Positions 4,673 to 42,491 of a stretch of DNA of 47,226 bases are shown here, one piece after another. Position 1 is the first letter of the stretch, and each line of letters starts with the position of its first letter. The notes under the pieces are model-generated. The model was not told the DNA's origin. It made no database searches and saw only the letters and a program-made list of their open reading frames with translations. The stretch comes from Candidatus Thorarchaeota archaeon. Its GTDB lineage: Archaea > Asgardarchaeota > Thorarchaeia > Thorarchaeales > Thorarchaeaceae. The stretch spans positions 76,455 to 123,680 of the forward strand of contig SDNZ01000001.1 of assembly GCA_004524565.1 (NCBI GenBank). Reading direction: 5' to 3'. The translations under genes were made by a program, and so were the position numbers.

Positions 4673-5311
4673 GTGAAAGATATGAACGATGGAGATCGAA
4701 CAAATTATGTCTATGAATTCACGTATAGTTCAGCTCCAGGACTTCGTGAGATCTTTCAATGCAAGTATGTTAGTCCAGTTGAGGCACTTAACAGGTTCAA
4801 AAAGATATTATCACTGACAGAGTCGCCTTTTGATTTTAAAATCCTAGTATCAGATGAAACAATGGGTGAAGAATCTAGTTTCCAAGTCAAGGGTGGCAGT
4901 ATCGAAGAAATGTTTGCCAAATTCAAAGTATTCCTCGAAACAAGTACTGGCTGTGTCTTTGTTGAAAGTGTCAGTGAAATTCCAGAAACGGGTTTCAATG
5001 AAACCAGATTAGAATCCATGAGTAACTATGATAAGATGCAGGTGATTATCTATGCATCTTTCAAACATGGAAAATTTTCTTCTCTTGATGTTGCTGAAAT
5101 TTACGAAGATACTTTCAGTGAAAATCTTCCTAAAAGCACAGCTTCAACTTATCTCGCACGAATGTGGGATAATAGTAAGGGACATCTTGAGCGGTATGGA
5201 AATAGATCAGGGTATACCTATCGCCTCAAAACTGAGGTGAAAGAAGTTTTAAGAGAAACAGAGAGAGCAGAAGAGCTCCTGGCAGCTATCCAGATGCGAG
5301 TTCGAGAATAG
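4673..5311 (+). CDS. Hypothetical protein with probable C-terminal winged-helix-like region
   Basis: 212 aa ORF, GTG start; C-terminal DKMQVIIYASFKHGKFSSLDVAEIYEDTF...STASTYLARMWD reads like an HTH module. Confidence 0.55.
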   Translation: MKDMNDGDRTNYVYEFTYSSAPGLREIFQCKYVSPVEALNRFKKILSLTESPFDFKILVSDETMGEESSFQVKGGSIEEMFAKFKVFLETSTGCVFVESVSEIPETGFNETRLESMSNYDKMQVIIYASFKHGKFSSLDVAEIYEDTFSENLPKSTASTYLARMWDNSKGHLERYGNRSGYTYRLKTEVKEVLRETERAEELLAAIQMRVRE

Positions 5312-5352
5312 CTTGAAACCCTTCTGCAGTGATTTTATTTGTATTATTAGTA

Positions 5353-6669
5353 TTACAAATCAAAAGTATGCTCTTCAAGAGAGATACCTAGTGTAGCTAA
5401 TTCTGCTAAAATTGGCTCGTAGATTTCGGGAATGATAGGACGATATACACCTGTGAGATTGATTCGACCTTCGAGTATCATTCTACTTGCAATAGCAACT
5501 GGAAGCGCAACTGTTCTTGACATGGAACTGTCTCCATTTGGAATTCCATAATCAATCATTGTTGATGTTATCTTCTGTTTCTTGTCTGGATACTCAGCAA
5601 TGAACTCGTGGTGCATAACGAGCATATCACGCTCTCCTGGTTCGTAGTTCATTTTCTCCTCAAAGAGTGCACATAGTGCATCAAGTCTTGTGTTAACCTT
5701 TGGATCGATTGTTCTATCATCAAATAGTCCAAGCCAATCTAATCGTAAGATAACCTCGCTGTCTAAATCGATTTTACAGAATTTGGCAACTGCTTCTTTA
5801 ACATCACCATTTTCAGCTGACGACAGCTCTTTCATCAAACCTGCATAGGTAGTGCCACCCAGAAACCGTTCTTCGATGTCTAGAAGACCAAGATCTGCTA
5901 TCTTGTCAAGGGTTTCACACCATCCTGTGTTCCTAAAAGTTCCTCTCAGCATTGTTTTGGTTTCTTGTATATTGTAAATATCGATGTAGGACATGCTATC
6001 TCGGTTTGGATAACCTTCGAATGTACCCATACCGGGAACTTCCATAGGTTCACAATTTTGAAAAAGATCAGCTCCTTGGATCTTGACCTCTTTTCCATCA
6101 CGCAGAAAGTGTGCGTCATTTCGTCCTGCAAGTAATACTCCTCGAGGGCTCCATGAAAGCTTGTATCCATACGGATTGTTGTTTGCCTCTGGTGCAGGAA
6201 GACCACCTGTGAAAGATGTGAAGCTAACGATTTTGCCATTGTTATTGTGCACATGGTCAATTATTTGCATCGCACTCATGTGATCGATACCAGGATCGAC
6301 CCCACACTCATTCAATAGTAAGACACCTGCTTTCTTTGCATGATCCTCTAATGTCTTCATCTCATCTGAAATGTATGAGGTAGTGCAGAACATCTTCTTG
6401 TGTCTGATTGCGACCTTTGCAGCCTTTACATGGTATGTGTAAGGAAGAAGTGAGCAAACAAGATCAACTTTAGCGGTCAAATCTTCAAGAAGACTATCGT
6501 CTGTGGTTATATTGAAAGCAACAGCTTCAGCATTTTCACACCCTTCTATCAGGTTTTCAGCCTTACTTTTTGTTCTACTGGCAACCACTACGTGGATGCC
6601 GTGTTCGCTAAGATAGTGAATAAACGGACGAGCTACAAGCCCTGCGCCTAAACATAGCACTTTCTTCAT
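5353..6669 (-). CDS. Saccharopine dehydrogenase (LYS9/SDH-domain type)
   Basis: 438 aa; KVLCLGAGLVARPFIHYLSEHG, VDLVCSLLPYTYHVKAAKVAI, NECGVDPGIDHMSAM, FTGGLPAPEANNNPYGYKLSWSPRGVL are typical of saccharopine dehydrogenase. Confidence 0.93.
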   Translation of the reverse strand: MKKVLCLGAGLVARPFIHYLSEHGIHVVVASRTKSKAENLIEGCENAEAVAFNITTDDSLLEDLTAKVDLVCSLLPYTYHVKAAKVAIRHKKMFCTTSYISDEMKTLEDHAKKAGVLLLNECGVDPGIDHMSAMQIIDHVHNNNGKIVSFTSFTGGLPAPEANNNPYGYKLSWSPRGVLLAGRNDAHFLRDGKEVKIQGADLFQNCEPMEVPGMGTFEGYPNRDSMSYIDIYNIQETKTMLRGTFRNTGWCETLDKIADLGLLDIEERFLGGTTYAGLMKELSSAENGDVKEAVAKFCKIDLDSEVILRLDWLGLFDDRTIDPKVNTRLDALCALFEEKMNYEPGERDMLVMHHEFIAEYPDKKQKITSTMIDYGIPNGDSSMSRTVALPVAIASRMILEGRINLTGVYRPIIPEIYEPILAELATLGISLEEHTFDL

Positions 6670-7999: not shown

Positions 8000-8108
8000 G
8001 TCCTAGGTTAGGAGTTATGTGTGCTAGGAGCGAGGGCCAAGACACCGACGCTTTAACTTTTCCGTGTCGGCCACAAACGTATTTCTTGTATTACACAAGT
8101 TGAAAATC

Positions 8109-8122
8109 AGAACATGTGTTCT
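8109..8122. promoter_or_regulatory. AGAACATGTGTTCT near-palindrome
   Basis: One substitution relative to AGAACACGTGTTCT copies at 8453-8766; lies between divergent LKR and the 8143 ORF. Confidence 0.5.
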
Positions 8123-8142
8123 TTGATTCGTGTGTTAGTACC

Positions 8143-8430
8143 ATGGCTTCGTATCTGTACCTTTATGATTGTAAGGAAGCTAGACGAAGTAATGCAAGGC
8201 GCGTGGCTTTTACCAAGGAGCTCTATGGGTATATTTACACTTGGAAAACGAAATCCGGAATCAAAGAAAAAAGAAAACCAGGTCTCTTAGACGAATGTGT
8301 GGGATCTGAAGCTGTCGCGGATTCAGCAATTCTAGTACCAGAAGAATCACGAGTATTATTCGATAGCTTATTCTCGACATATCGGGATATACTGAGTCTT
8401 AGGGTGTATGAAATTGTTCAGGAAACCTAG
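8143..8430 (+). CDS. Small hypothetical protein
   Basis: ORF 8116-8430 (GTG at 8116); more likely ATG at 8143, giving MASYLYLYDCKEARRSNARRVAFTKELYGYIYTW. Confidence 0.5.
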   Translation: MASYLYLYDCKEARRSNARRVAFTKELYGYIYTWKTKSGIKEKRKPGLLDECVGSEAVADSAILVPEESRVLFDSLFSTYRDILSLRVYEIVQET

Positions 8431-8454: not shown

Positions 8455-8766
8455 GAACACGTGTTCTAGTTACTATCATTCTAGCAGGAATCTGGATAAG
8501 GTCTGTGCATTACCTGGATAACACCCCTTCATTTCCACTGCAGAAATAAAAATGGAGTGATTTTAAGCGATCAATATAGAATAAATAAAAATGGAGATAA
8601 ATGCAAGCTGCAAAAACCCCTATTTATACTTACCGAAATCGAATCTAATAGATAGGTGATTGAATTTTTCTAGTGGAAATGGAGGGGTCTTATAGGTCTT
8701 AGAACACGTGTTCTAACAGTAATACACGTATTACCTTAATAAAGTATAGATAAGAACACGTGTTCT
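8455..8766. promoter_or_regulatory. Operator-like region upstream of iorA with three AACACGTGTT-core palindromes
   Basis: GAACACGTGTTC at 8455-8466; TTAGAACACGTGTTCTAA (18-bp perfect palindrome) at 8699-8716; AGAACACGTGTTCT at 8753-8766; GTAATACACGTATTAC at 8719-8734. Confidence 0.65.
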
Positions 8767-8846: not shown

Positions 8847-10739
8847 TTGGCTAAACCTCAAGAACTACTTGAAGACTCTCCAGGGAAGAAGGTACTATTA
8901 CTTGCAAATGAAGCTATTGCACGTGGAGTACTAGAAGCTGGAGTTAGGTTGGTTGCACTTTATCCTGGTACACCCAGTAGTGAGATTGGGAACAATCTTA
9001 CATTCATGGCACCAAAGATACCTAATTTTTACTTTGAATTTAGTACGAATGAAAAAGTTGCTCTCGAAGTAGCTGGAGCAGCGGCTGTTGCTGGAGTTAG
9101 ATCAATGATGGTCTGTAAAGGACCAGGTCTCAATGTGGCTGCAGATCCATTCTTCTCACTTGCATACGTTGGAGTACGAGCAGGCATGGTTATCGTTGTA
9201 GCTGATGATCCAAGTATGTGGAGTTCACAGAATGAAAACGATAGTCGGTACTATGCATTGATGGGTAATATGCCTTTGATGGAACCAAGCGATCCTATAG
9301 AAGCTAAATCAATGCTGCTTGAAGCATACGCATTCTCAGAACAATTTGAGCTACCAGTCCTCTTCCGAACTACAACCCGAGTCAATCATACTAGAGCACC
9401 AGTTGAATTCGGACCAATCTCTTCACGCCCTGATAAAATTGAGTTTGAAAAAGAACCATTCCGGTTTGTACCAATTCCAGCTGTGGCTAGAGTTAGGCAT
9501 CCGTGGTTACTTGGACAGATAGAGAAAGCTCGTGAGTTTTCAGAAACCAGCCTTTTGAACTTCACTGAGGGTGAAGGAGACCTAGGTATCATTACTAGCG
9601 GGGTATCGTATAATTATGTGAAAGAAGCTCTTTTGGAGATGAATATCTCTGCAGAAATTTTGAAACTTGGAATCACCCATCCTCTACCTGAGAAAAAAAT
9701 GATAGAGTTTCTGAAGCGTCACAAGAAAGTCGTTGTAGTTGAAGAACTTGAACCATTCCTTGAAACACATGCTCGCCGCCTAGCTCAGCTTGAAAAAATC
9801 ACGGTTGATATTCTTGGTAAAGAGCAAGGTTTCTTTTCTCGTGTTGGAGAATATAGTCCAAGGATTGTTATAGAAGCTCTATGTAAAATTAATACTTGTA
9901 ATACACCTATTAATTGGGCAGATATTGATGCGAGATCAAAAACGGAACTTGATTTACCACCAAGACCCCCATTATTATGTGCAGGCTGTCCGCATCGTGC
10001 ATCTTACTATGCTATTCGGACAGCAACACGAGGGAAAGCAATCTATCCAACAGACATTGGATGCTATACTCTAAGTATTGCACCACCTCTAGAAACCGCA
10101 GACATTCTCTTTGATATGGGATCATCAATCACAACAGCATGTGGACTTGCTGAGGTTACTGATCAGGATATTGTTGCATCAATTGGTGACAGTACCTTTT
10201 TTGCATCAGGTCTTCCAGGTATAGTAAACGCAGTATACAATCAACATAGAATATGTTTGGTGGTCCTGGATAATAGAACCACAGCAATGACTGGCCATCA
10301 ACCGCATCCTGGAACAGGAATTACTGGAATGAGAAAAGAGGTTCCACCACTGGACATCGAAGAGGTTTGCAAAGGTCTCGGAGTTGAGTATGTGAAGACC
10401 ATCAACCCATTCGATTCTATTGCAGGTCTAGTTGGTGAAGTAAGAGAGATGGTAAAATGGGCAAGGGAGAATCATAAGCCTGCAGTCCTGATTAGTAAAG
10501 AACCCTGTGCATTGCTAAAAGCAGCAGATCGTCGTCGTGCAGGCGAAACGCCACCCAAATATTACGTTGATGCGGAAGAATGTACTGCATGCAAACGCTG
10601 TCTTAACCGGTTATCCTGTCCAGCAATGTATATGGATCCTGAAACGGAGAAAGCTGTGATAGATGAAACTCAGTGTAATCTATGTGGGACGTGTGTTGCA
10701 GTATGTCCACAAGGAGCAATAAAGAGGGAGGCGGAATAA
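8847..10739 (+). CDS. iorA: Indolepyruvate ferredoxin oxidoreductase alpha subunit
   Basis: TTG start; ALYPGTPSSEIG, GDSTFFASGLPGIVNAVYN, TAMTGHQPHPGTG; C-terminal ferredoxin motifs CTACKRCLNRLSCPA and CNLCGTCVAVCPQGAI. Confidence 0.95.
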   Translation: MAKPQELLEDSPGKKVLLLANEAIARGVLEAGVRLVALYPGTPSSEIGNNLTFMAPKIPNFYFEFSTNEKVALEVAGAAAVAGVRSMMVCKGPGLNVAADPFFSLAYVGVRAGMVIVVADDPSMWSSQNENDSRYYALMGNMPLMEPSDPIEAKSMLLEAYAFSEQFELPVLFRTTTRVNHTRAPVEFGPISSRPDKIEFEKEPFRFVPIPAVARVRHPWLLGQIEKAREFSETSLLNFTEGEGDLGIITSGVSYNYVKEALLEMNISAEILKLGITHPLPEKKMIEFLKRHKKVVVVEELEPFLETHARRLAQLEKITVDILGKEQGFFSRVGEYSPRIVIEALCKINTCNTPINWADIDARSKTELDLPPRPPLLCAGCPHRASYYAIRTATRGKAIYPTDIGCYTLSIAPPLETADILFDMGSSITTACGLAEVTDQDIVASIGDSTFFASGLPGIVNAVYNQHRICLVVLDNRTTAMTGHQPHPGTGITGMRKEVPPLDIEEVCKGLGVEYVKTINPFDSIAGLVGEVREMVKWARENHKPAVLISKEPCALLKAADRRRAGETPPKYYVDAEECTACKRCLNRLSCPAMYMDPETEKAVIDETQCNLCGTCVAVCPQGAIKREAE

Positions 10740-11354
10740 ATGGCAAGTAATACTAGTAATACAATAAACATAGCTATTGCTGGAGTAGGTGGACAAGGAG
10801 TTCTCACACTTGCAGAGATTCTTGCTAAGGCTGCATTAGCTGAAGGATTGAATGTACGAGTTGGGGAAATCCATGGAATGGCTCAGAGGGGTGGTCATGT
10901 AGTCTGCACAGTTAGGATTGGTGATGATGCAAGTGGTCCAGTCATCGATGCAGGTGCAGCTGATCTTCTTGTAGGCTTTGAACCTGTTGAAACATTACGA
11001 GAGATCCATCTAGTGAAGAAGGGTGGATATGTACTGATGAGCTCACATATTCAATATCCTGTAGCTGTTTCTATGGGAAAAGCTAAATATCCTGATCACA
11101 AGGATATCATAGATTCGATAAAGAAATTCACAGACAAAATCATCGAAATTGATGCACACAAAATTGCTATTGAAGCTGGAAGTCCCAGATCTCTAAACAT
11201 GGTAATGTTTGGTGGAATAATCGGAACCAATCTTATTCCCATTAGTAAAGAATCAGCACTGAAAGTAATCAGTGAAGCCTTCCCAAAGAAGTTTGAAAAA
11301 ATCAATAGCATGGCAGCTGAAATTGGGTTAGAGCAAGTAAAGAAGCAGATATAA
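10740..11354 (+). CDS. iorB: Indolepyruvate ferredoxin oxidoreductase beta subunit
   Basis: Immediately follows iorA; NIAIAGVGGQGVLTLAEILAKAAL, GMAQRGGHVVCTVRIG. Confidence 0.93.
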   Translation: MASNTSNTINIAIAGVGGQGVLTLAEILAKAALAEGLNVRVGEIHGMAQRGGHVVCTVRIGDDASGPVIDAGAADLLVGFEPVETLREIHLVKKGGYVLMSSHIQYPVAVSMGKAKYPDHKDIIDSIKKFTDKIIEIDAHKIAIEAGSPRSLNMVMFGGIIGTNLIPISKESALKVISEAFPKKFEKINSMAAEIGLEQVKKQI

Positions 11355-11374
11355 TACATGTAATATTTGTATTA

Positions 11375-13732
11375 CTATCTCTCATCAGTCAATTTGGCTG
11401 CTGCTGTTGCTACTTGTCCTACAGATATTCCTCCATCACCAGGTGGCACAAGTGAATGAAGAACAGGGACAAGGTTGTTATTCCGGATGTGATTAGCAAT
11501 AGATCTTGTTAGTATCTTATTGACTGCTACTCCTCCCGAAAATCCAATATGAAGTATATCTTCATCTCGAGCTATCTCACATGCAATCTCAGCTAACCCT
11601 TGACCGATTGATTGTTGAGCTGCATATGCTAACTCCGAACGATTCAAACCTTTCTCCTTTAGTTCAATTACCTGTAATAGTAGATGTGTTGTGTCAAGAA
11701 CCTGTCCATAAATAGATTTGACATACTCTCTCTCGAGCTGAATGTCAGATTTTCTAGCGATAGCCTCCAATTTCATTGGGCATTCACCATCATAGGAATT
11801 TTTAGAACAAATACCCAAAGCGACAGCGACTGCATCAAGAACTCTACCAGTACTTGAGCTCTTTACAGTGTTAATTTTTTTATTACTTATCTTTACAAGG
11901 ATATCCAACATATCTGTAGTAATCTTCTGATTAGGTGATACTTCTGCTGTATCCAAGATTTCGAGAATCTTTTCTTTCTCCAATTCCTTACCTACAATGC
12001 CTAAGAAAGCTCTGGATGAATAAACTGCAGATAAATCTCCTCCAGCATATTCCTGTGCTTTCAATCCACCCTTACGCACGTAATCCCAGAGATCTCCTAC
12101 AAGAATCTCTCCTCCCCATCCAGTACTATCTTCTCCGTACCCATACCCATCTGCTGTAATACAAACAATACGATTTTCAATTGGTATTAACCCATCAACA
12201 ATCAAAGAAGAAAGATGTGCATGGTGATGTTGCACCCTAAAGAGAGGAATATCATTCTCAGAAGCAATTCGTTCAGCAAGTTCAGTACTTAGAAACTCAG
12301 GATGCAAATCGCAAGATACCCCATCTAGTTTTGAAATACCCAAGAGATGTTTCATATGCTCAATAGCTTCTGTGAGAAACTCTATGTTTTCCACCTGATC
12401 TGTATCACCAATGTACTGTGTCATATACACTCGACCGGATTTTGCAAGAGCTCCTGTTACTTTCTCTTCTGGACCAACAGCTAACACCTTAAGTGATTTC
12501 CATGGTCCATTGAAAACGAGAGGTTCAGGTACATACCCTCTTGCTCGTCTGATGAAGACTGGATTATCCTCCTCTGTTAATTTTACCACAGAGTCATCCG
12601 CACGTTGGTGAATTCTTCTATCATGAAGTAAGAAGTAATCTGCAATATCACCAAGCTCACTCATGATTGTGTCTGGATCAATATACATAGGCATCCCTGT
12701 AGGATTGGCACTGGTCATAACTAAAGCAGGTTCTTTAGAATACTTGAAGAGAATGTGATGCATTGGTGCATAAGGCAACATTACACCAATACTATCCAGA
12801 CCTGGAGCAATCAAATCGAGCACAGAATCTTGTATTAATGGTAATACACCAGAATTTAATTTCCTTGAAGCCAACACAATTGGCCTTCTCCAAGAAGTGA
12901 GAATCCGTTTCTCAAGCCTATTGATATCGACCAGCTTTTTGAGTGCATCAAGATCTCTTACCATCAATGCAAATGGTCTTTGGAATCTCTTCTTTCTTTC
13001 TCGTAGAATCTTTATTGGTTCTGTATCACTTGTTTTTGTTGCAATGTGAGTTCCTGCAATTCCTTGAAGGACAGCAATAGCACCATCATCAATTAGTCCA
13101 GCAATGGTTTCTATTGGATTGTTATCTGCGAAACTTTGTGCATCTCGATCTACTAGACGATATCTTGGCCCACATGTATCACATGCAGTTGTCTGTGCAT
13201 GATAACGTCTATCCAGTGGGTCTGTATAACCTGTATTACAAGTATCACAAAGTGGAAAATCAATCATTGTAGTATTCGGCCTATCATATGGGAGATCTGT
13301 AATGGTAGAATATCTAGGTCCACATGCCGCGCATGATGTAAATCCATATTGATGCCAGCGTGACTCAGAATCAAACAAATCCCTCACACAATCATTGCAT
13401 ATTGCAATATCAGGAGGAAGTACAGGAATTGCATCATCATTTCGTACTACAGATGATTTACGTATCAGAAAATCTGTAAACTTATTCTCTGCAGGTACCC
13501 ATTCAATATCCAATGTATCTATCCGTGAGATAGAGGGTAAATCATTCTTGATACGACTGATTAATTCATGGACTTGCTTCTCTGTACTTTCAACTACTAT
13601 CTCAACACCAGCATCTCCAAGATTGAGTACATATCCCATCAATGATAGGGACTTGGCAACACGATAAACAAAAGGTCTGAATCCAACTCCTTGGACAATC
13701 CCTGTTATACGGATTACCGCTTTTCTCTTCAC
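11375..13732 (-). CDS. hypF: Carbamoyltransferase HypF (hydrogenase maturation)
   Basis: 785 aa; acylphosphatase domain RITGIVQGVGFRPFVYRVA, zinc fingers CNDCVRDLFD / CAACGPRYS / CDTCNTGYTDP / CDTCGPRY, YrdC-like and Kae1-like regions. Confidence 0.95.
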   Translation of the reverse strand: MKRKAVIRITGIVQGVGFRPFVYRVAKSLSLMGYVLNLGDAGVEIVVESTEKQVHELISRIKNDLPSISRIDTLDIEWVPAENKFTDFLIRKSSVVRNDDAIPVLPPDIAICNDCVRDLFDSESRWHQYGFTSCAACGPRYSTITDLPYDRPNTTMIDFPLCDTCNTGYTDPLDRRYHAQTTACDTCGPRYRLVDRDAQSFADNNPIETIAGLIDDGAIAVLQGIAGTHIATKTSDTEPIKILRERKKRFQRPFALMVRDLDALKKLVDINRLEKRILTSWRRPIVLASRKLNSGVLPLIQDSVLDLIAPGLDSIGVMLPYAPMHHILFKYSKEPALVMTSANPTGMPMYIDPDTIMSELGDIADYFLLHDRRIHQRADDSVVKLTEEDNPVFIRRARGYVPEPLVFNGPWKSLKVLAVGPEEKVTGALAKSGRVYMTQYIGDTDQVENIEFLTEAIEHMKHLLGISKLDGVSCDLHPEFLSTELAERIASENDIPLFRVQHHHAHLSSLIVDGLIPIENRIVCITADGYGYGEDSTGWGGEILVGDLWDYVRKGGLKAQEYAGGDLSAVYSSRAFLGIVGKELEKEKILEILDTAEVSPNQKITTDMLDILVKISNKKINTVKSSSTGRVLDAVAVALGICSKNSYDGECPMKLEAIARKSDIQLEREYVKSIYGQVLDTTHLLLQVIELKEKGLNRSELAYAAQQSIGQGLAEIACEIARDEDILHIGFSGGVAVNKILTRSIANHIRNNNLVPVLHSLVPPGDGGISVGQVATAAAKLTDER

Positions 13733-13900
13733 AACCTTGGCTCCTTCTGGCTGCGGTGAAACATTATGAATATTAATCCAGTGACGTGGCTGTAGGTTAT
13801 TAAAATACAGGCTCGATTAATTGTATTACCAATATTACATTCCATTTCTTCTTTGTATAGGTCCTCTTAAGGCTAAGTAAGAATAAATCACTGAACAGGC

Positions 13901-14314: not shown

Positions 14315-14503
14315 GATTCCTATGATCTGAATTGTAATACACGTATCATAGTTGAACATTTATTACCATGAGATGTCCGTATACAAATGTGTATCCGCAC
14401 AGATGGACTGAGTAAAACAAAGAATAAACCTATTCTATGGCATCTAAACGTGGTTCTAACCCATTCATAGAAAAAAGTATCATAATTTGATGGAGACCAT
14501 ACT

Positions 14504-15052
14504 ATGAAAGAGAAATCTAAAGACCAACCTAATAAAAAGGACATCAAGAATCTCACAGCTGGAACAAAACAGGTATTGAAAGAACCAATACTAAAAAAAC
14601 TCCAAGAGGGTTCAACCCTGAGCCTTGCTCAGCTAGAAACGCTCCTAATTGATCTTGTAGTTGAGGATAATTATGGCACTCACATCACATATGAAGATAA
14701 GGCATCATATCGCTCAAGGAGTGGAAGCAGATCTCGGGGAGTATCAAGAGGAGCTTTCAATAGAACTCTAACTCAAGCAAGAACAAATGTTACACGATGT
14801 CTATACACAATGTTACTTCTTGCATATCTAGGTTTATTTGATTCCACAGTGTTTAGACCATTTGAAGTAGTAGCCACACGAATTGGAGACTATAGAAGAA
14901 TTCGAGATATCCTAGCTGGAAAGACAGAACTGGCTCAAGAAGATCTTGAGAGTGTTGCAGTAACAGAAAAAACAATCATGTCATTTCTAGAAGACCTTTC
15001 ATCTGCATTGGTATTGAAATCCGAGCTCTCACGAAAAAAGCCTGACGAATAA
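14504..15052 (+). CDS. Hypothetical protein
   Basis: 182 aa ORF with an ATG start and no competing ORF of similar quality. Confidence 0.6.
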   Translation: MKEKSKDQPNKKDIKNLTAGTKQVLKEPILKKLQEGSTLSLAQLETLLIDLVVEDNYGTHITYEDKASYRSRSGSRSRGVSRGAFNRTLTQARTNVTRCLYTMLLLAYLGLFDSTVFRPFEVVATRIGDYRRIRDILAGKTELAQEDLESVAVTEKTIMSFLEDLSSALVLKSELSRKKPDE

Positions 15053-15281: not shown

Positions 15282-15468
15282 TAGTATCAATTGTACATAG
15301 TTCTAATCTTAGAACGGGAATTTTTGCATATTTTTTGGCGCGAAAGCCATAATCCTAATAATTGTAATACAAGAAATACAATAAAAGGAAGACACAGATT
15401 AAAGATATCACTTTCAAATTTAGGAAATAGATAGTACAAATAATCAATCAATCGTGAGAGGGTCCTCA

Positions 15469-16713
15469 TTGGCTAAAGACAATAATCGTGAATCCATACT
15501 TCAGGCAGTCAAAGAACGTGTCAGACAATCCGAAGAACTGCAACTCACTCAGATGATAGTCACTGCTATGGGAGAAAGAAGGAACCGGGACTTGAGTGAT
15601 ATTATATCCCAAATAGAACAAGATAGAGGATGGGCTGTTGCACTAATGCACCTCTCTCGAGCTAATCAAATTCCTTATACTCTCCCAATTGGTGCAGGTC
15701 CCAATCATATGTTGATTGAAGAACTGAAATACCGCGAAATGATTTTCACTTTGCTAGAATGCAATGGGCTTGAACCAGTCCCTATTACAACGGAAGAAAT
15801 TCTCTCAGAATTGAAGAACGAAGATTCTTTGATTGACGCTTCACAGTTACTTCGTACTGATTGTGAGTCATTGGCTTCCAAACAGATTGAATCAGGTGAC
15901 ACTCTATTCTTTGATCTGACTAATGCTGATAGTTCTATATCTGCAAACATAGGATACCTTCTTGAAAAAATACAAAGTGATGAACTTGCCAATCTAATCC
16001 TCGAAAAACAAGATGACACAATCAACATTCTCCCTCTCTGGTACCTAGAGAAGGGAAGACAAACGTTATCACAATTAGGAATAAAAGGAACATCGATAGA
16101 TTCAGAAAGGTTTGAAATCGTAATATCTGTAATACAGCAAAATTTACCAACTACTGAATCAACCGAGCTACACGTCACAGACAAGCAATTGAATTATCCA
16201 TCAAATCCACATTATCAAAAACTACTCACCTCAATTATTAATCATGATATAGAAAGTCTAAGTTCACAATCCAGTAGGCACTCATTCCATTCACTGAAAT
16301 TCATGCTCGAAAATACCTTGGATATCTATGAGAATTCCCAATCAAGTTCTGCCTTTTGGAATATCCTATCCTGCGTGAATGCTCATGTCCGAGTCAGAAC
16401 TCCAGAATCTGTAATGCTACTTGAAAATCTTGCTCACTCTAAAGACACTCGAGTTGCAACAGCTGCCATAACAGGCTTAGGTAATTTCTACAATGAGGCA
16501 TCTGTGTCTGCTCTTGTAGATCTTCTTTGCCGTGCAAAAAATAACGAAGTAGTGAATACTGCAATACGTGCTATCAAGAATGTTAGTAAGAGATGTCTTG
16601 AAACCAAGTACATTGTGAGGAACGCCACCGAATCAAAGTTGTGCACAAACATCGGACATTTGAAACGATTATACAAGGATATTTGGAAGGAAGTAGACGA
16701 TTATTACTTGTAA
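15469..16713 (+). CDS. HEAT-repeat-like hypothetical protein
   Basis: ORF 15454-16713; C-terminal alpha-repeat pattern VMLLENLAHSKDTRVATAAITGLGNFYNEASVSALVDLLCRAKNNEVVNTAIRAIKNV; start probably TTG at 15469. Confidence 0.65.
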   Translation: MAKDNNRESILQAVKERVRQSEELQLTQMIVTAMGERRNRDLSDIISQIEQDRGWAVALMHLSRANQIPYTLPIGAGPNHMLIEELKYREMIFTLLECNGLEPVPITTEEILSELKNEDSLIDASQLLRTDCESLASKQIESGDTLFFDLTNADSSISANIGYLLEKIQSDELANLILEKQDDTINILPLWYLEKGRQTLSQLGIKGTSIDSERFEIVISVIQQNLPTTESTELHVTDKQLNYPSNPHYQKLLTSIINHDIESLSSQSSRHSFHSLKFMLENTLDIYENSQSSSAFWNILSCVNAHVRVRTPESVMLLENLAHSKDTRVATAAITGLGNFYNEASVSALVDLLCRAKNNEVVNTAIRAIKNVSKRCLETKYIVRNATESKLCTNIGHLKRLYKDIWKEVDDYYL

Positions 16714-16758
16714 TACAAATAATAGCATCATTCGACGACAGACATAAATCGAACTCAT

Positions 16759-18177
16759 ATGTGGCGTGGAACTATGACAGATTCAGATGCTGAATTATTC
16801 AAAGACATGGACCCATTTTTCAATCCCAAACGCATCGCTCTAGTTGGAGCTTCTGCAGACTATAGGAAACTGGGTAACTCGATATTGATGAATTTACTAG
16901 CATCTGAAATTGATGTATATCCAATTACCCATAGTAGGGATCATGTGCTTGGTATCAAAGCATATCCTAATCTTGCATCAATACCTGAGCCAGTTGATTT
17001 AGTGATTGTTGCAGTGGGGGCAAAATACTGTGCATCCCTAATGCCTGAGATTAAGAAAGCTGGGTCGAGAAATGCAGTAATAATATCAGGCGGATTTAGT
17101 GAAACTGGTGCTGATGGGGTCCAGATTGAGAATGACTTAGTCAAGGCTGCAAAAGAATCAGGTATCAGAATAATTGGTCCAAACTGTGTAGGCGTATCAA
17201 ACAGTAGATTATTCAATGGAACTTTCACAATGATGCCTGAACGCGGCAACATTGCCTTTGTTTCACAGAGCGGAGCTCTTGGTGGTATGACTATTTACAA
17301 TACAAGAACTAAGAGAATTGGAATGAGCAAATTTGCAAGCGTTGGAAATTCTGCTGATGTAGGTATTGTAGAGATGTTGGACTACTTTAGACAAGACTCC
17401 AAGTCAACTGTGATTGCTGCATATATTGAAGGTGTGAGCCACGGTCGTCAGCTATTCGAATCATTACAGCGAGCTGCACGAGAGAAACCAGTCGTTGTAC
17501 TGAAAGGTGGTAGAAGCGAAGCCGGTGGACGTGCAACACAATCACATACTGGGTCTCTTGCTGGATCTGCCAGAATATTTGATGGAATGATTCATCAAGC
17601 TGGTTGCGTCACTGCTCCAACACTTGATACTCTATTTGAAGTCTGTAAATTGTTCGATTATCAACCCCTTCCAAGGGGTCGCAAAATTGGTATTATTAGT
17701 AATACAGGTGGGGCTGGTGTATTAGCTACAGATGCAGCTTCAGATATAGGATTGGAAATCGCAACCTTTGAACAAGAAACGAGGGATGAACTCAGTCAGG
17801 TTCTTCCGCCTATAGCATCTGTAAGAAATCCAATTGATGTTGTAGCTAGTGGAGGACGAAGGGAATACCGAATTGCCACAGAACTTCTCTTAAAAGATCC
17901 TAATGTAGACATGCTACTTGTGATATGTGCAGTTCCAACATTTGCAGGTATGACTCAGACAGAACATGCCGCTGGAACCTTAGAAGGAGTACGTATAGCA
18001 GCCATAGACAAACCAGTCGTAGGAGTATGGCTGGCGGGTGATGTTGGAAAACCTGGAAAAGATCTTCTAGAAATGAATAGAATTCCTTGTTTTGATGATC
18101 CTTCTCTTGCAGCACTTTGCATGATGCGCGTGGCTGAGTATGCAGAAGCCCATCAGAATCCTAATGGGCCCCATTAG
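16759..18177 (+). CDS. Acetate/acyl-CoA ligase (ADP-forming) alpha subunit
   Basis: 472 aa; FNPKRIALVGASADYRKLGNSILMNL, IIGPNCVGVSN, FVSQSGALGG, SHTGSLAGSARIFDGMIHQAG, ISNTGGAGVLATDA are ACD alpha signatures; ATG at 16774 is an alternative start. Confidence 0.92.
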   Translation: MWRGTMTDSDAELFKDMDPFFNPKRIALVGASADYRKLGNSILMNLLASEIDVYPITHSRDHVLGIKAYPNLASIPEPVDLVIVAVGAKYCASLMPEIKKAGSRNAVIISGGFSETGADGVQIENDLVKAAKESGIRIIGPNCVGVSNSRLFNGTFTMMPERGNIAFVSQSGALGGMTIYNTRTKRIGMSKFASVGNSADVGIVEMLDYFRQDSKSTVIAAYIEGVSHGRQLFESLQRAAREKPVVVLKGGRSEAGGRATQSHTGSLAGSARIFDGMIHQAGCVTAPTLDTLFEVCKLFDYQPLPRGRKIGIISNTGGAGVLATDAASDIGLEIATFEQETRDELSQVLPPIASVRNPIDVVASGGRREYRIATELLLKDPNVDMLLVICAVPTFAGMTQTEHAAGTLEGVRIAAIDKPVVGVWLAGDVGKPGKDLLEMNRIPCFDDPSLAALCMMRVAEYAEAHQNPNGPH

Positions 18178-18209
18178 CAATGTAATACGAATATTACACG
18201 TATAATTAT

Positions 18210-18521
18210 TTATTCAAGATACTCATCAGCTATCTGTGGAAATTCCTTAGCAATTGCTTCACGAAGCTGGTGTTCAACCCACAAACTTAGGTTGATTGCC
18301 TTAGTTTTCCTGATAGCTTGAAGACAAGTTCGAAGATCTGTAGGAATTGAAAATGAAACAATTGGACTCTTCCGTTCTTTGTTAGGTACTGCTGAAAGGA
18401 TTTCACTGGTCGTAGTCTTAGTAGGCTCTTGTGGTTTTCTTTCAACGGTTGTTGTTTCACCATCGCTAGCTTCATCGTCTTTATCTGCTTCTTCTCGTCT
18501 GTATTTTCCAAGTAGACTCAT
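18210..18521 (-). CDS. Small acidic protein with a C-terminal ribbon-helix-helix-like segment
   Basis: ORF 18210-18575; internal ATG at 18521 abuts the upstream ATPase; SPIVSFSIPTDLRTCLQAIRKTKAINLSLWVEHQLREAIAKEF has a beta strand plus two-helix RHH-like pattern. Confidence 0.55.
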   Translation of the reverse strand: MSLLGKYRREEADKDDEASDGETTTVERKPQEPTKTTTSEILSAVPNKERKSPIVSFSIPTDLRTCLQAIRKTKAINLSLWVEHQLREAIAKEFPQIADEYLE

Positions 18522-18522
18522 A

Positions 18523-19503
18523 TTATTGAACCTCCCTGAGTATTGTTGCATATGCTTGAGAAACAAGCGATGCAATCTCTTTATCCACTGTGGGGTCTCC
18601 GTTCTTCCTAAAATTCTCAGCAGCCACTTGTTGGCAACCTCGTGCTAACATTCTGATGTCGCGAGGATTACCTCTTGCTGCTGTATTGATTACATTGATT
18701 GATTCATCGCTGAATGGGTATACGTTAAATGAATCTGTATCAAAGCTATCAATTCTTCCCTGAGCATAAGCAATTCTTCGTCCTATGAATTCCTTTGCTT
18801 TTGCATTGTTGAGAGCTGGTACATCAAGAGGTTCTGTACGATCTGCAATCTGTGGTAGGAACGATAACATAGCGTTCCAATATATCATGGTTCCAGACAT
18901 GACCAAAGTGACAATTGGTTCATCTAGAGATTGTGCTTTACCATATGTTTCTACCATCTCTTCAGTTGGCAAGTCTGCAAGAAAACGTAATTTATGAAAT
19001 GCTGCTTCTTGATTATCTGCCACATCCTCAATGAAGAGCGCTGTGCGACTTTTCTCCTCAATATATCTCCGAAGACTCTCTTTTGCTACGGCATCGATGA
19101 TTTGGCTGGACTCCCAGGATCTTTTGTATTTCACTCTCAACGAATCAGCAATAGCTGCAGCCATCTGCTTCTCGTAGAGACCTGTCATCCCTACATATCC
19201 AGTGACAAATTTGTTTCCTTTTCTATCTGCTAATGTTGGCAAGTCTCTCAGTGCCAAAAGCATCAGTGTACTCTTCCCCGATCCCACAGGACCGCGAATG
19301 AAGACATGTCTCTCATTTGTGATAATTAAATCAACAATGGAATCTAAGAAGTCACTATCTTCAATATACAACCGACTGTCTGGCATTTTGAAACCACGAA
19401 ATGGCGAAAATCTGGCACCAATCCTTTCTTCCCATGCTCGAAGGACTTCCTTTCGAGTGTTGAAGTGACGAATCAATGCACTCTCGTGGATAGCAATTGT
19501 CAT
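18523..19503 (-). CDS. AAA+ ATPase, Cdc6/ORC- or ExeA/TniB-like
   Basis: 326 aa; Walker A GPVGSGKSTL, Walker B TALFIEDVAD, sensor-like VTLVMSGTM, lid-like ARGNPRDIRMLARGCQQ. Confidence 0.75.
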   Translation of the reverse strand: MTIAIHESALIRHFNTRKEVLRAWEERIGARFSPFRGFKMPDSRLYIEDSDFLDSIVDLIITNERHVFIRGPVGSGKSTLMLLALRDLPTLADRKGNKFVTGYVGMTGLYEKQMAAAIADSLRVKYKRSWESSQIIDAVAKESLRRYIEEKSRTALFIEDVADNQEAAFHKLRFLADLPTEEMVETYGKAQSLDEPIVTLVMSGTMIYWNAMLSFLPQIADRTEPLDVPALNNAKAKEFIGRRIAYAQGRIDSFDTDSFNVYPFSDESINVINTAARGNPRDIRMLARGCQQVAAENFRKNGDPTVDKEIASLVSQAYATILREVQ

Positions 19504-19714
19504 TTTGTGGACCTCTATTTTCTAGATTATTTTGTATCACAAGTACTTATTGTAATACAGTTTTTCAGTAAACAATTACAATATAAAAAGTGTGGTGAAA
19601 CTTCCCAAATTTACTGGTACAAGCACTAAGAATACACAACCTTTTTGAATAGAATGAAATGGCTTGTAGCTTGACCTGTATAATGGTCATGAACCCTCTT
19701 GGGAGCTATCGGAT

Positions 19715-20674: not shown

Positions 20675-20708
20675 AACTACTGTATTAACAGTAATACAAT
20701 AAATATTC

Positions 20709-21210: not shown

Positions 21211-22038
21211 TCAGAGTAAGCCTAAGTTAATATCGAAAACAACGTGGTCAACACCTGGAGAATAATTTTTAATCTTACGAACTTGTATTTGAGATTCGAA
21301 TCCTTTTCTAGAACAAATCTCCCCTATCCGTGAAGTCGTATCTTCTAAGATATCTCTCTGAATAGCTATATGCATATGGATTATACCACCTTCTTGAGTC
21401 AGAGTATCTAACGCATGAGGGAGATACAGATCAGTATTGTGCAAATATCCCATGATGATACGGTTAGCATAATTGATAGGGTGTACCTTTCGACAATCGC
21501 CCAACAAAGCAGTTACTCTATTTTCAAGTTTGTTAATCCGAATATTATCAAGAAGAAACTGATATGCATCATCATTGATTTCAATTGCTGTGACTAAAGC
21601 ATCTGTAGACTTTGCAATTTGCAAAGCAAATTGTCCTACACATGAGAACATGTCCACAACTATTTCACCAGATTTGATTTGCTTTACAATATTTATCCTC
21701 TCTCTCTTGTTTCCACCTGAGAATGTTATCCTAATCGGGTCCAGTCTGAATTGAACACCATTTTCAATATGTGTAGTAACTGTATTACAATCTCCCGCGA
21801 CTACCTCAAAGTCAGGGTGACGTTTCTCTCCACTAGTGGGTCCGGTTCTGATTGCTACTGATTTAATCCGGTCATCAAAAGACAGAGTTGCATCACCAAT
21901 GATGGATGCATACTCTTGGAGAGAAGAATTTAGATGTACTAGGGCAACATGTCCTACGATATGAAAACCTGATGGAAGTTGTATATCCTCAGGTAATCGA
22001 TTCTTCAGTTGTGTTTTGAGGAAATCTCGGTACCTCAT
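21211..22038 (-). CDS. Trm5/TYW2-family class I SAM-dependent tRNA methyltransferase
   Basis: HIVGHVALVHL, FEVVAGDCNTVTTHIENGVQFRLDPIRITFSGGNKRERINI, VVDMFSCVGQFALQIAKS; paralog identity not resolved. Confidence 0.85.
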   Translation of the reverse strand: MRYRDFLKTQLKNRLPEDIQLPSGFHIVGHVALVHLNSSLQEYASIIGDATLSFDDRIKSVAIRTGPTSGEKRHPDFEVVAGDCNTVTTHIENGVQFRLDPIRITFSGGNKRERINIVKQIKSGEIVVDMFSCVGQFALQIAKSTDALVTAIEINDDAYQFLLDNIRINKLENRVTALLGDCRKVHPINYANRIIMGYLHNTDLYLPHALDTLTQEGGIIHMHIAIQRDILEDTTSRIGEICSRKGFESQIQVRKIKNYSPGVDHVVFDINLGLL

Positions 22039-25553: not shown

Positions 25554-26220
25554 GCTTGATGTCTGGTTAGTTGAAAATGGTCATTTTTCTTCCCGTCAAG
25601 TTGCTAAGAGGGCTATCAAAGAAGGAATGGTTTTGGTCAATGGAAGACAATGCAAACCCTCCAAACAGGTAAGCGGAAAAGAAGACATCAAGGTTTCATC
25701 AGAATTTAAGGATAAACCAATGGGCTATCACAAACTCAAAGAAATTGATAATTTGCTACAAGGAAATCTAGTAACTCTTCCATGCATTGCTCTTGATATT
25801 GGTAGTTCAGCAGGTGGTTTTCTTGAATATCTCAACGACAAAGGTGCGACCGCAATTGGAATCGAGGTTGCCCGGAGGTTTTCAGAGCATCTTACCAAAT
25901 TAGTTGATTCTCATTCTAGAATTTCAGTAATCTTTGATGATGCATTTACTATTAATCCCACAGTCATAGTCGACGAAGGTGGTCTCGATCTTCTTCTTGT
26001 TGATGTTACTACAGAAATAGATGGCACTTTGAAACTAATCTCACGATTTTCTTCACTACTGAAGAAAGGTGGTCGTCTAGTTGCAGCCTTCAAGACGGGT
26101 AGCCCTGATATTGTATTACAGTTATTAGAGTCAGTAACGAATACTGGCTTCGAAGATGTACAAAGTTTCTATCTTGATGATAGTCGTCAAGAAGTGCATA
26201 TCATTGGATGTTACAGGTAA
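25546..26220 (+). CDS. TlyA/FtsJ-like S4-domain rRNA methyltransferase
   Basis: S4 domain PRLDVWLVENGHFSSRQVAKRAIKEGMVLVNG; SAM motif ALDIGSSAGGFLEYLNDKGA. Confidence 0.85.
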   Translation: MPRLDVWLVENGHFSSRQVAKRAIKEGMVLVNGRQCKPSKQVSGKEDIKVSSEFKDKPMGYHKLKEIDNLLQGNLVTLPCIALDIGSSAGGFLEYLNDKGATAIGIEVARRFSEHLTKLVDSHSRISVIFDDAFTINPTVIVDEGGLDLLLVDVTTEIDGTLKLISRFSSLLKKGGRLVAAFKTGSPDIVLQLLESVTNTGFEDVQSFYLDDSRQEVHIIGCYR

Positions 26221-34650: not shown

Positions 34651-35670
34651 TTGCAATCAGATTATTCGAACTTCATGGAATCCATTGTTGATCTATTTAG
34701 ACCTATAGCTCAGTTCTTCCAAAGTCTTGGGCTTCCATTTGGTGAAATAGCATGGATCTTTATCTTCACAATTACACCACTACTGTTGATAATTATCCTA
34801 CTGGTAGTTCGTGGTCGACGCAGAGGTGGAGTTGATTTAGATGAAGGTGTTAAGAAGATAATTGCTTCAACTGGTGACGTTTCAACCGGTATGGCTGGTG
34901 TCAAGAAAGTCAAGTACATCAGAACACCTGCAGAAGCCTTGGTCTTTCTCAAGATTGAAGAAAATGCAATCCAACAAGCATTAGCTGCTGTAGACTATTA
35001 TGCACAGCAGGGTGAAATGGATGAATCACTGAAGACTAAATTCATTCAGACCTATCAAGACCGTTTGGATGCAGTTCGCAGTGCAATTGCTAAAGATGAA
35101 GAATTCAAAGAGATTGTCGACACCTCTTCCGCGGTAGACCGCGCTCGTTCTGATTATCTTCAGAAACTTGCAGCAATGTCAGGAACCGCCGTAGAAACTG
35201 ATGATGATGACAAAGCTGGCCCATCAAGTGTAGGAATGCCAGATGCAACCACTACAACTGCTCCAAGTGGAGGAGTCCCAAGTGGTGGTCCTCCCGGTGG
35301 TGGCGCACCCAGTGGTGGTCCTCCAGGCGGCGGTGCACCTAGCGGTGGTCCTCCCGGTGGTGGCGCACCCAGTGGTGGTCCTCCAGGCGGCGGTGCACCT
35401 AGCGGTGGTCCTCCAGGCGGCGGTGCACCTAGCGGTGGTCCTCCCGGTGGTGGAGCACCTAGTGGCGGAAGTCTTCCCGGTGGCGGCCCTCCAGGCGGTG
35501 GTGCACCCAGCGGTGGTCCTCCCGGTGGTGGAGCCCCAGGTGGCGGAAGTCCTCCCGGTGGTGGAGCACCTGGTGGTGAGGCACCAAAAACAACTGGTGG
35601 CAAAAGTTCACTCCAGTCCGAGATGCTTCAAGAGATGGAACGTCTTAAGGCGCTCATGGGTGGAGATTAG
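34651..35670 (+). CDS. Membrane-anchored protein with Gly/Pro-rich tandem repeats
   Basis: TTG start; one TM segment, helical region, then (GGPPGGGAPS)n. Confidence 0.75.
   Translation: MQSDYSNFMESIVDLFRPIAQFFQSLGLPFGEIAWIFIFTITPLLLIIILLVVRGRRRGGVDLDEGVKKIIASTGDVSTGMAGVKKVKYIRTPAEALVFLKIEENAIQQALAAVDYYAQQGEMDESLKTKFIQTYQDRLDAVRSAIAKDEEFKEIVDTSSAVDRARSDYLQKLAAMSGTAVETDDDDKAGPSSVGMPDATTTTAPSGGVPSGGPPGGGAPSGGPPGGGAPSGGPPGGGAPSGGPPGGGAPSGGPPGGGAPSGGPPGGGAPSGGSLPGGGPPGGGAPSGGPPGGGAPGGGSPPGGGAPGGEAPKTTGGKSSLQSEMLQEMERLKALMGGD
35263..35580 (+). repeat. In-frame ~30-bp tandem repeat encoding GGPPGGGAPS; includes a nearly identical 60-bp duplication
   Basis: 35281-35340 and 35341-35400 differ at one base. 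Confidence 0.9.
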
Positions 35671-41645: not shown

Positions 41646-42491
41646 GTGGTATTGATCGAAGTCGCACTCACCTGTCAACTATCAGATGGGACCACTATCA
41701 AGAAATCAGTTGGTACAAAACCCACACAAGTATCACTGACGAGAAACAGTCTGAAAGATATCGATCTTACTCCCTTGCGTTCATGTCTGGAATTGAACGT
41801 GTTGGATCTTGCCCATAATCAATTGAATAAGGTCGATTTGAGCCAGCTTGGGCTGGAGTGTGGGGTGGAACGGCTATCCCTTTCCTACAACCCCCTGCAG
41901 AAAATTGACTTGGAGCCATTAAAGGACTGGAAGAAACTTGAGATTCTACGATTAACAGGGTGCGAATTGGATTCAATTGATCTAGAGTTTCTATCAGAGT
42001 TGAAACATCTAAAACAACTGTCTCTTTCATTCAACAATCTAATAGAATTGGATATGTGGCCACTTGCATCCTGTCCTGAACTGGAAATTCTCACAGTAAA
42101 TAGGAATAGGTTTACGAGTCTTGATTTATCACCACTAGCCCATTGTGCTAGTTTGAAAACATTGAACCTGGGTGACAATGACTATCAGACCATCGACCTA
42201 TCCCCACTTGCAAAGTGTACGAATCTCTACTCCTTGGTCCTGAACAAGACCCCCTTAGACACCATTGACCTTACTCCCTTTGAATCATTAAAGAATCTGC
42301 AAGGACTAGATATGAGTCGAAATAGTTTCAGAACAGTGGATTTACGTCCTTTGCTGCTTTGTAATGATATGTATGAGGTAAACCTTGAAGATAATCCTCT
42401 GGAATCCTTGATTGTGCCAAAGGGATTCGAATGTGCCGCCTTGAAATTGAATGTGGATTCTGAAATTGAAATGGTAGAAAGAGATGGATAA
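41646..42491 (+). CDS. Leucine-rich-repeat protein
   Basis: Repeated units of about 23 aa, LxxLxLxxNxLxxIDLxPLxxC, over nearly the whole protein. Confidence 0.88.
   Translation: MVLIEVALTCQLSDGTTIKKSVGTKPTQVSLTRNSLKDIDLTPLRSCLELNVLDLAHNQLNKVDLSQLGLECGVERLSLSYNPLQKIDLEPLKDWKKLEILRLTGCELDSIDLEFLSELKHLKQLSLSFNNLIELDMWPLASCPELEILTVNRNRFTSLDLSPLAHCASLKTLNLGDNDYQTIDLSPLAKCTNLYSLVLNKTPLDTIDLTPFESLKNLQGLDMSRNSFRTVDLRPLLLCNDMYEVNLEDNPLESLIVPKGFECAALKLNVDSEIEMVERDG

Follow-up and report, generated by a model that had tools for sequence, protein, structure and literature searches.

A putative origin-linked chromosome-partition module with an AAA+ ATPase in Asgard archaea

Partition systems are classified according to the NTPase that they use. 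We know of no AAA+ type; a literature search for an AAA+-type partition system likewise found none. MuB, an ATPase that binds DNA and is released by its partner, serves here as a model for such a protein, while MatP, acting at matS, exemplifies an RHH-containing protein with clustered chromosomal sites. Asgard archaea are the closest prokaryotic relatives of eukaryotes. On how they segregate their chromosomes, a 2024 review states only that ParA/ParB homologues exist in them and may be used (PMC7617429). The sites of SegB occur, as in the array described below, in both coding and non-coding DNA, and the protein has been reported to bridge and compact DNA, its sites being about 1 kb apart (PMC12284271). 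In the type Ib delta/omega system of pSM19035, the RHH protein omega carries a short N-terminal peptide that activates the ATPase, and it binds arrayed 7-bp repeats whichever way they are oriented (PMC9499535).

The DNA analyzed in the present study (the window; 47,226 nt, positions 76455–123680 of the 123,680-bp contig C27) originates from a Thorarchaeota (Asgard) genome of 3.13 Mb in 218 contigs.

The gene pair and its products

The original prediction described two directly adjacent minus-strand genes, the ATPase first, and this arrangement was confirmed:

18523–19503, minus strand: AAA+ ATPase, first gene of the pair, 326 aa, with Walker A and B motifs, AAA_22-type family
18210–18521, minus strand: small RHH-like protein, proposed to be centromere-binding, 103 aa from the ATG (MSLLGKYRREE...)

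The small gene begins one base past the ATPase stop. The 121-aa ORF listed for this place is a longer version of the same gene, starting at a TTG within the AAA+ gene.

The ATPase contains the Walker A motif GPVGSGKST and the Walker-B-like sequence TALFIEDV. A Pfam scan of the window protein returned AAA_16 and AAA_22 only, both below cut-off (AAA_22, PF13401: 22.5 bits versus 27), which, together with the P-loop, bears out the claim that the NTPase is of AAA+ and not of ParA/SegA type. The Odinarchaeia orthologue scored above the AAA_22 cut-off (61.6 bits versus 27), and PF13401 was matched at E ≤ 0.01 by 14 of the 17 family members. The protein had been described as a Cdc6/ORC- or TniB-like AAA+ ATPase; the AAA+ (AAA_22-type) assignment was retained, but orthology to Cdc6 was rejected, because genuine Orc1/Cdc6 genes sit separately on the same contig. 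The window ATPase scored 15.5 bits against the Orc1/Cdc6 model TIGR02928 (cut-off 181.3) and the Odinarchaeia copy 36.6 bits, far under the 181-bit cut-off, and no Cdc6_C winged-helix domain was matched in either of these copies.

The small protein consists of (i) a basic N-terminal peptide, MSLLGKYR, (ii) a variable linker and (iii) a predicted C-terminal strand-helix-helix. Across 19 Thorarchaeota, six of the eight residues of the peptide are invariant (M1, S2, L4, K6, Y7 and R8) and the C-terminus is conserved, whereas the linker (approximately residues 9–45) holds no invariant residue. Among 21 relatives, RHH_1 was matched by three (best E 2e-4) and Arc, weakly, by two; Foldseek gave no match for the small protein, and ParB_N and HTH_ParB were not matched by the window copy in the Pfam scan. 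The AlphaFold monomer comprises a helix (residues 3–15), a disordered part and an extended segment followed by two helices (61–72 and 78–93), with the highest confidence at the C-terminus and no strand called. This is how an RHH monomer would be expected to look, and an RHH fold is thus supported, but not proven, by the model and the weak domain matches; to this extent the RHH-like C-terminus of the original prediction stands. An AlphaFold check had been proposed for both proteins: the topology of the small one favours RHH, while the model of the ATPase was too poor for use (mean pLDDT 51).

Elsewhere in the window we noted a long GGGAPSGGPP-type repeat following a transmembrane-like N-terminus (34651–35670; the repeat is open in other frames too) and a leucine-rich repeat protein (41646–42491; LRR_8, 88 bits).

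The heptad array

The window contains 27 copies of GTAATAC where 3.6 would be expected (7.5-fold), and none of 100 shuffles reached this count. Pairs of GTAWTAC units were then scored, with at least 12 of the 14 positions matching. At a pitch of 9 bp, the 123.7-kb contig contains 24 such pairs, all of them at window positions 5341–26113, and the other ~100 kb has none; every other pitch from 7 to 21 bp gave 0–5 pairs in the core region. All 24 pairs therefore fall within 21 kb around the gene pair, in agreement with its proposed location inside the array. The pairs merge into 19 positions, to which one site of 18-bp pitch (19534/19552) is added; the sites consist of two or three units at 9-bp pitch, with heptads in both orientations. 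They are listed below without strand. The names iorA-like, iorB-like, hypF-like and acyl-CoA-synthetase-like were read from the sequences by us.

5341–26128: whole heptad array, a centromere-like region of ~20 sites, GTAWTAC units at 9-bp pitch
5341–5356: GTATTATTAGTATTAC (pair scan)
8079–8094: GTATTTCTTGTATTAC (pair scan)
8719–8734: GTAATACACGTATTAC, perfect pair (pair scan)
9889–9913: three units, within the iorA-like gene (heptad kept in 17/22 species)
10747–10762: GTAATACTAGTAATAC, start of the iorB-like gene (pair scan, codon test)
11351–11375: three units, interval between the iorB-like and hypF-like genes (pair scan)
12156–12171: within the hypF-like gene (heptad kept, 23/23)
12832–12847: within the hypF-like gene (heptad kept, 9/17)
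13224–13248: three units, within the hypF-like gene (heptad kept, 19/23)
13823–13838: intergenic (pair scan)
14334–14349: upstream of TP3 (pair scan)
15355–15379: three units, intergenic (pair scan)
16120–16135: within the HEAT-repeat gene (heptad kept, 18/21)
16701–16725: three units, spanning the stop codon of the HEAT-repeat gene (pair scan)
17690–17705: within the acyl-CoA synthetase-like gene (heptad kept, 25/26)
18182–18197: GTAATACGAATATTAC, downstream of the RHH gene, flanking the pair (pair scan, 27-locus survey)
19534–19558: 18-bp pitch, 31–55 bp upstream of the AAA+ start (heptad in 27/27)
20682–20697: intergenic (pair scan)
21773–21788: within the methyltransferase-like gene (pair scan)
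26113–26128: outermost site, intragenic, weak (pair scan)

Both phased sites said to flank the pair were found, one at 18182 (GTAATAC-GA-ATATTAC) and the other at 19534/19552, where GTATCAC on the plus strand, a unit with one mismatch, is followed 18 bp on by GTAATAC. The latter site may also have a part in autoregulation of the operon.

Conservation of the array extends to all 27 Thorarchaeota loci surveyed. These loci contain 431 pairs at 9 bp and 148 at 18 bp, against 7–34 at each other pitch; in 27/27 of them a heptad precedes the ATPase start by 28–63 bp, and in 23/27 one lies close to where the small gene ends. On the complete chromosome of G217, 13 of the 14 pairs are within 20 kb of the ATPase gene (0.84 Mb sampled), and similar clustering was observed in three further genomes. 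In the genome from which the window derives, a stricter tandem pattern gave nine matches, seven of them in the array region.

Approximately half of the array sites lie in coding sequence. Among species keeping the amino acid, codons under sites were identical in 88–97%, compared with 47–52% for matched codons of the same genes; the species counts overstate the independent evidence owing to kinship, which the matched control codons share. The constraint was significant in four of the five genes, i.e. the iorA-like, iorB-like, hypF-like and acyl-CoA-synthetase-like genes (p=0.0002, the floor of 5000 resamplings), and weaker in the HEAT-repeat gene (p=0.05). The intragenic array sites are selected as DNA. 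A coincidence of short AT-rich words is ruled out by the shuffles, the control for the 9-bp pitch and the conservation at codon level.

The palindrome AACACGTGTT is a separate observation. Ahead of the iorA-like gene, a stretch of 310 bp holds three exact copies (8456, 8703 and 8755), and a copy with a single mismatch lies at 8111; with up to one mismatch, there are five copies in the window versus 1.2 expected. These copies look like the operator of a separate regulator.

Distribution, neighbourhood and exchange with ParA-ParB

Asgard families are numbered here, f1 being the Thorarchaeota family and f26 Odinarchaeia. Of the 47 Thorarchaeota-family genomes, a single-sequence search detected the AAA+ ATPase in 43, almost all of which have a single copy. 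When 231 Asgard genomes were searched with a profile (E ≤ 1e-20), it was found also in f11 (7 genomes), f13 (4), f14 (4), f21 (1) and f26 (2, one of them a single contig that is presumably Odinarchaeum), and in no family besides these and f1. A diverged relative was identified in f12 (hhalign E 3.5e-12); its own RHH-like partner and the f11 small protein are related (E 1e-4), and a clear relationship links the small proteins of f11 and f1 (E 6e-16). For the small proteins of f13, f14 and f21, no profile alignment to the Thorarchaeota protein was obtained, though their genes occupy the same position. In G189, a Thorarchaeota-family genome in a single contig of 3.2 Mb, both Orc1/Cdc6 genes are near the contig start and neither the AAA+ gene nor TP3 (see below) was found, perhaps reflecting an assembly gap at this place.

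A mobile element or integrated plasmid was rejected as an explanation, because the region is kept over the whole Thorarchaeota family; comparison with phages gave no match and with plasmids one weak match. PADLOC models gave no meaningful match to an anti-phage defence system.

Arrays accompany the pair in other families as well, and it is worth mentioning that their sites differ. The array of f11 consists of GTAWTAC at 9-bp pitch (10–12 per 20 kb versus 1.7–1.9 in shuffles, which for these lineages were first-order Markov resamplings), that of f12 of TTCAWTGAA, i.e. the heptad TCAWTGA at 9-bp pitch, and those of f14 and f21 of GATATC(A) at 13-bp pitch (29, 21 and 14 copies versus 1.7–2.8 in shuffles). 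Single GATATC copies occur throughout the f14 genome; on 260 kb of one f14 contig, however, 29 of the 66 copies lie within 9% of its length (p=1e-13). No array was found at the f13 and Odinarchaeia loci, where the candidates GTTAACA (f13) and ACCGGTA (Odinarchaeia) were enriched within the locus but not relative to the rest of the contig, and were rejected. The survey of co-occurrence suggested in the original prediction thus gave a strong yet incomplete association: f1, f11, f12, f14 and f21 have phased motifs of their own, while f13 and f26 show none. The architecture of the array recurs while the site sequence and even the pitch differ by lineage.

Three further genes of the window recur near the pair:

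14504–15052, plus strand: TP3, third conserved component, 182 aa, near AAA+/RHH in seven Asgard families and beside ParA-ParB in two
4673–5311, plus strand: WH4, winged-helix-like, auxiliary; relatives lie close to the module in f12, f13, f14, f21 and f26 and close to ParAB in f2 and f24
8116–8430, plus strand: ZN5, small auxiliary protein; relatives lie close to the module in f12, f13, f14 and f26

Searches of Pfam, NCBIfam and PDB gave TP3 no relative that exceeded the cut-off. Wherever a family has the pair, TP3 is there too, and in f21 the AAA+, RHH-like and TP3 genes form a single run on one strand; TP3 is further present in f2, f24, f17 and one f6 genome. A hypF-like gene also recurs near the pair in several families.

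Genuine Orc1/Cdc6 genes are separate from the pair in all genomes tested, at distances of 2.6–2.8 kb in f13 and Odinarchaeia, 3–6 kb in f14, ~7 kb in f12, 10 kb in f11 and 35 to ~55 kb in Thorarchaeota (nearest copy), linkages that are partly shared by descent and are not independent counts. The gene between the pair and Orc1/Cdc6 in Odinarchaeia appears, from its sequence, to encode the small subunit of DNA polymerase D, and a probable Alba gene is close by. GC skew, sampled along a complete Thorarchaeota chromosome, was weak and did not locate the origin.

In f2 (L122, 9541–12424) and f24 (L124, 9158–12096), ParA, ParB and TP3 form one run, with WH4 nearby in both loci and a true Orc1/Cdc6 gene ~2 kb away in L124. 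The ParA proteins match AAA_31 with 180–182 bits, the ParB proteins exceed the cut-offs for ParB_N and HTH_ParB, and the two loci have the look of a chromosomal archaeal ParABS; no parS-like array was evident there from k-mer counts. A phylum-wide search with these ParA and ParB proteins gave strong full-length matches (E<1e-160) only in G001 (f2) and G170 (f24), the latter with a stated contamination of 12% and the former with the same arrangement; other matches across the phylum were weaker or partial and located elsewhere. Close full-length relatives of ParA and ParB were found in none of the AAA+/RHH lineages, in which distant ParA-superfamily ATPases (MinD-like and others) may remain. A partial ParB-like match in a contig of a Thorarchaeota genome (G211:C173:120-494) possibly comes from a plasmid or virus.

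Since ParAB stands beside TP3 in f2 and f24, the AAA+/RHH pair occupies the ParAB slot. Where ParAB is in the slot the pair is absent, and vice versa, as observed in two genomes. We take this mutual exclusion, again in two genomes, as the best argument for a role in partition.

Proposed function and comparison with known systems

We consider it likely that the locus represents an origin-linked chromosome-partition module of Asgard archaea, putatively ParABS-like, in which an AAA+ ATPase takes the role of ParA/SegA. The original prediction had left the choice between segregation, licensing and nucleoid organisation. Its partition-like architecture is largely supported by the codon constraint, the linkage to Orc1/Cdc6 and the ParAB slot, from which the function itself is deduced; segregation fits best, because ParAB has a segregation role elsewhere.

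In the mechanism that we propose, RHH-like dimers would bind the palindromic GTAWTAC units side by side at 9-bp pitch, by analogy with omega on its 7-bp repeats (PMC9499535) and with SegB (PMC12284271), and ~20 sites per 20 kb near Orc1/Cdc6 would give rise to a partition complex. The AAA+ ATPase in its ATP state would bind or assemble on DNA without sequence specificity and be released by its partner, in analogy to ParA and MuB. The basic N-terminal peptide (MSLLGKYR...) on its flexible linker would touch the ATPase and stimulate hydrolysis and release, by analogy with the activating tails of ParB-type proteins. A diffusion-ratchet or tether-release cycle comparable to ParA/ParB or to MuB/MuA target immunity could then separate duplicated origins, and TP3 would be an accessory factor common to the ParAB version. 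We infer the binder of the sites, the ATPase cycle, the generation of force and the function of the module as a whole.

Four other readings were weighed. An organiser of the origin region without a motor, in which the RHH-like protein would compact or bridge the array (in the manner of MatP/matS, of SegB when bridging, or of a platform for condensin loading) and be loaded, unloaded or remodelled by the AAA+ protein, would suit the ~1-kb spacing of sites over 20 kb, which resembles that of SegB (PMC12284271), and the tight linkage of array and pair. We regard it as unlikely: the place that the pair holds next to TP3 is the ParA-ParB slot, which favours segregation, and the array is confined to ~20 kb near the pair instead of being domain-wide.

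It is more doubtful still that another local protein, TP3 or WH4, binds the heptads and that the pair is linked to them by position only. TP3 is conserved with the module and has, by eye, a helix-turn-helix-like stretch; on the other hand, f11 has the GTAWTAC array at 9-bp pitch and neither WH4 nor ZN5 within the 20 kb read, and no array was seen where TP3 stands with ParAB in f2 and f24. The change of motif, moreover, is tracked by the similarity of the AAA+ and RHH proteins and not by that of TP3, a correlation over few lineages. Between f1 and f11, which share the motif, identity is 42–45% for the AAA+ protein and 30–33% for the small protein, and between f1 and f14/f21 it is 27–28% and 15–18%, respectively, whereas the corresponding values for TP3 are 27–28% and 27–31%.

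Marginally less probable again is a control of replication licensing or initiation, with an AAA+ protein of distant Orc1/Cdc6-type fold and its sites acting as an initiator titration or licensing switch. The linkage to Orc1/Cdc6 and the 36.6 bits of the Odinarchaeia copy (cut-off 181) would agree with this, but the genuine Orc1/Cdc6 genes are separate in all genomes tested, the ATPase of the pair has no Cdc6_C match, and ParAB replaces the pair in other lineages. We give hardly any weight to a local transcription regulator, the RHH-like protein being an autorepressor or cell-cycle regulator and the heptads its operators: a site 28–63 bp ahead of the ATPase gene in 27/27 loci and several intergenic sites would fit, yet about half of the sites are intragenic and conserved at codon level, the genes of the region are functionally unrelated, and phased pairs are essentially absent elsewhere.

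With the partition module as the preferred reading, close full-length ParA-ParB stands beside TP3 in two families only, while AAA+/RHH, mostly with a centromere-like array, holds the slot in seven, including Thorarchaeota and Odinarchaeia. We lean towards the wider view that an AAA_22-type ATPase, an RHH-like protein and a third factor form the main segregation machine, instead of ParA-ParB, in most TP3-carrying Asgard lineages, and that the centromere changed with the DNA-binding protein. If it is true that the ATPase drives segregation, partition systems would gain a new NTPase type. As candidate proteins, exact sites and three natural site types have been named, binding and segregation are directly testable.

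The pair shares several features with described systems. As in ParABS, the ATPase gene precedes that of the DNA-binding protein, and clustered sites, some of them intragenic, lie near origin-type genes; a centromere-like cluster near the two genes was found for 24/24 pairs of the contig and in 27/27 loci. The ATPase differs from ParA (deviant Walker A, AAA_31/PF13614/CbiA) in its classical P-loop GPVGSGKST and AAA+ features, the small protein lacks ParB_N and HTH_ParB, and the sites are heptads at 9-bp pitch and not the parS of ParB. SegAB of Sulfolobales likewise combines an ATPase with an RHH-type centromere-binding protein (here RHH-like and putative), but SegA is of ParA type, and SegB recognizes the 13-bp motif TCTAGASTCTAGA at sites spread over the chromosome, in contrast to GTAWTAC at 9-bp pitch within ~20 kb. 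With the type Ib omega system the locus shares short repeats arrayed in either orientation. The omega heptads (WATCACW) are contiguous, at 7-bp pitch, and are served by a ParA ATPase; here, GTAWTAC units at 9-bp pitch, two or three per site, are distributed over 20 kb of a chromosome and accompanied by an AAA+ ATPase. ExeA, TniB and MuB-like proteins are AAA_22-type ATPases of the same fold class; unlike them, the ATPase of the pair has no transposase or secretion genes nearby, has an RHH-like partner, and is encoded by a single-copy core gene near Orc1/Cdc6. MatP/matS also unites an RHH-containing protein with clustered chromosomal sites, although MatP is not known to have an ATPase partner and matS is sparse over the terminus, whereas the sites described here are dense and linked to Orc1/Cdc6. 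Since the features of ParA and ParB that were looked for are absent from it, the pair is not a member of ParABS or SegAB, though it most likely works in a ParABS-like manner.
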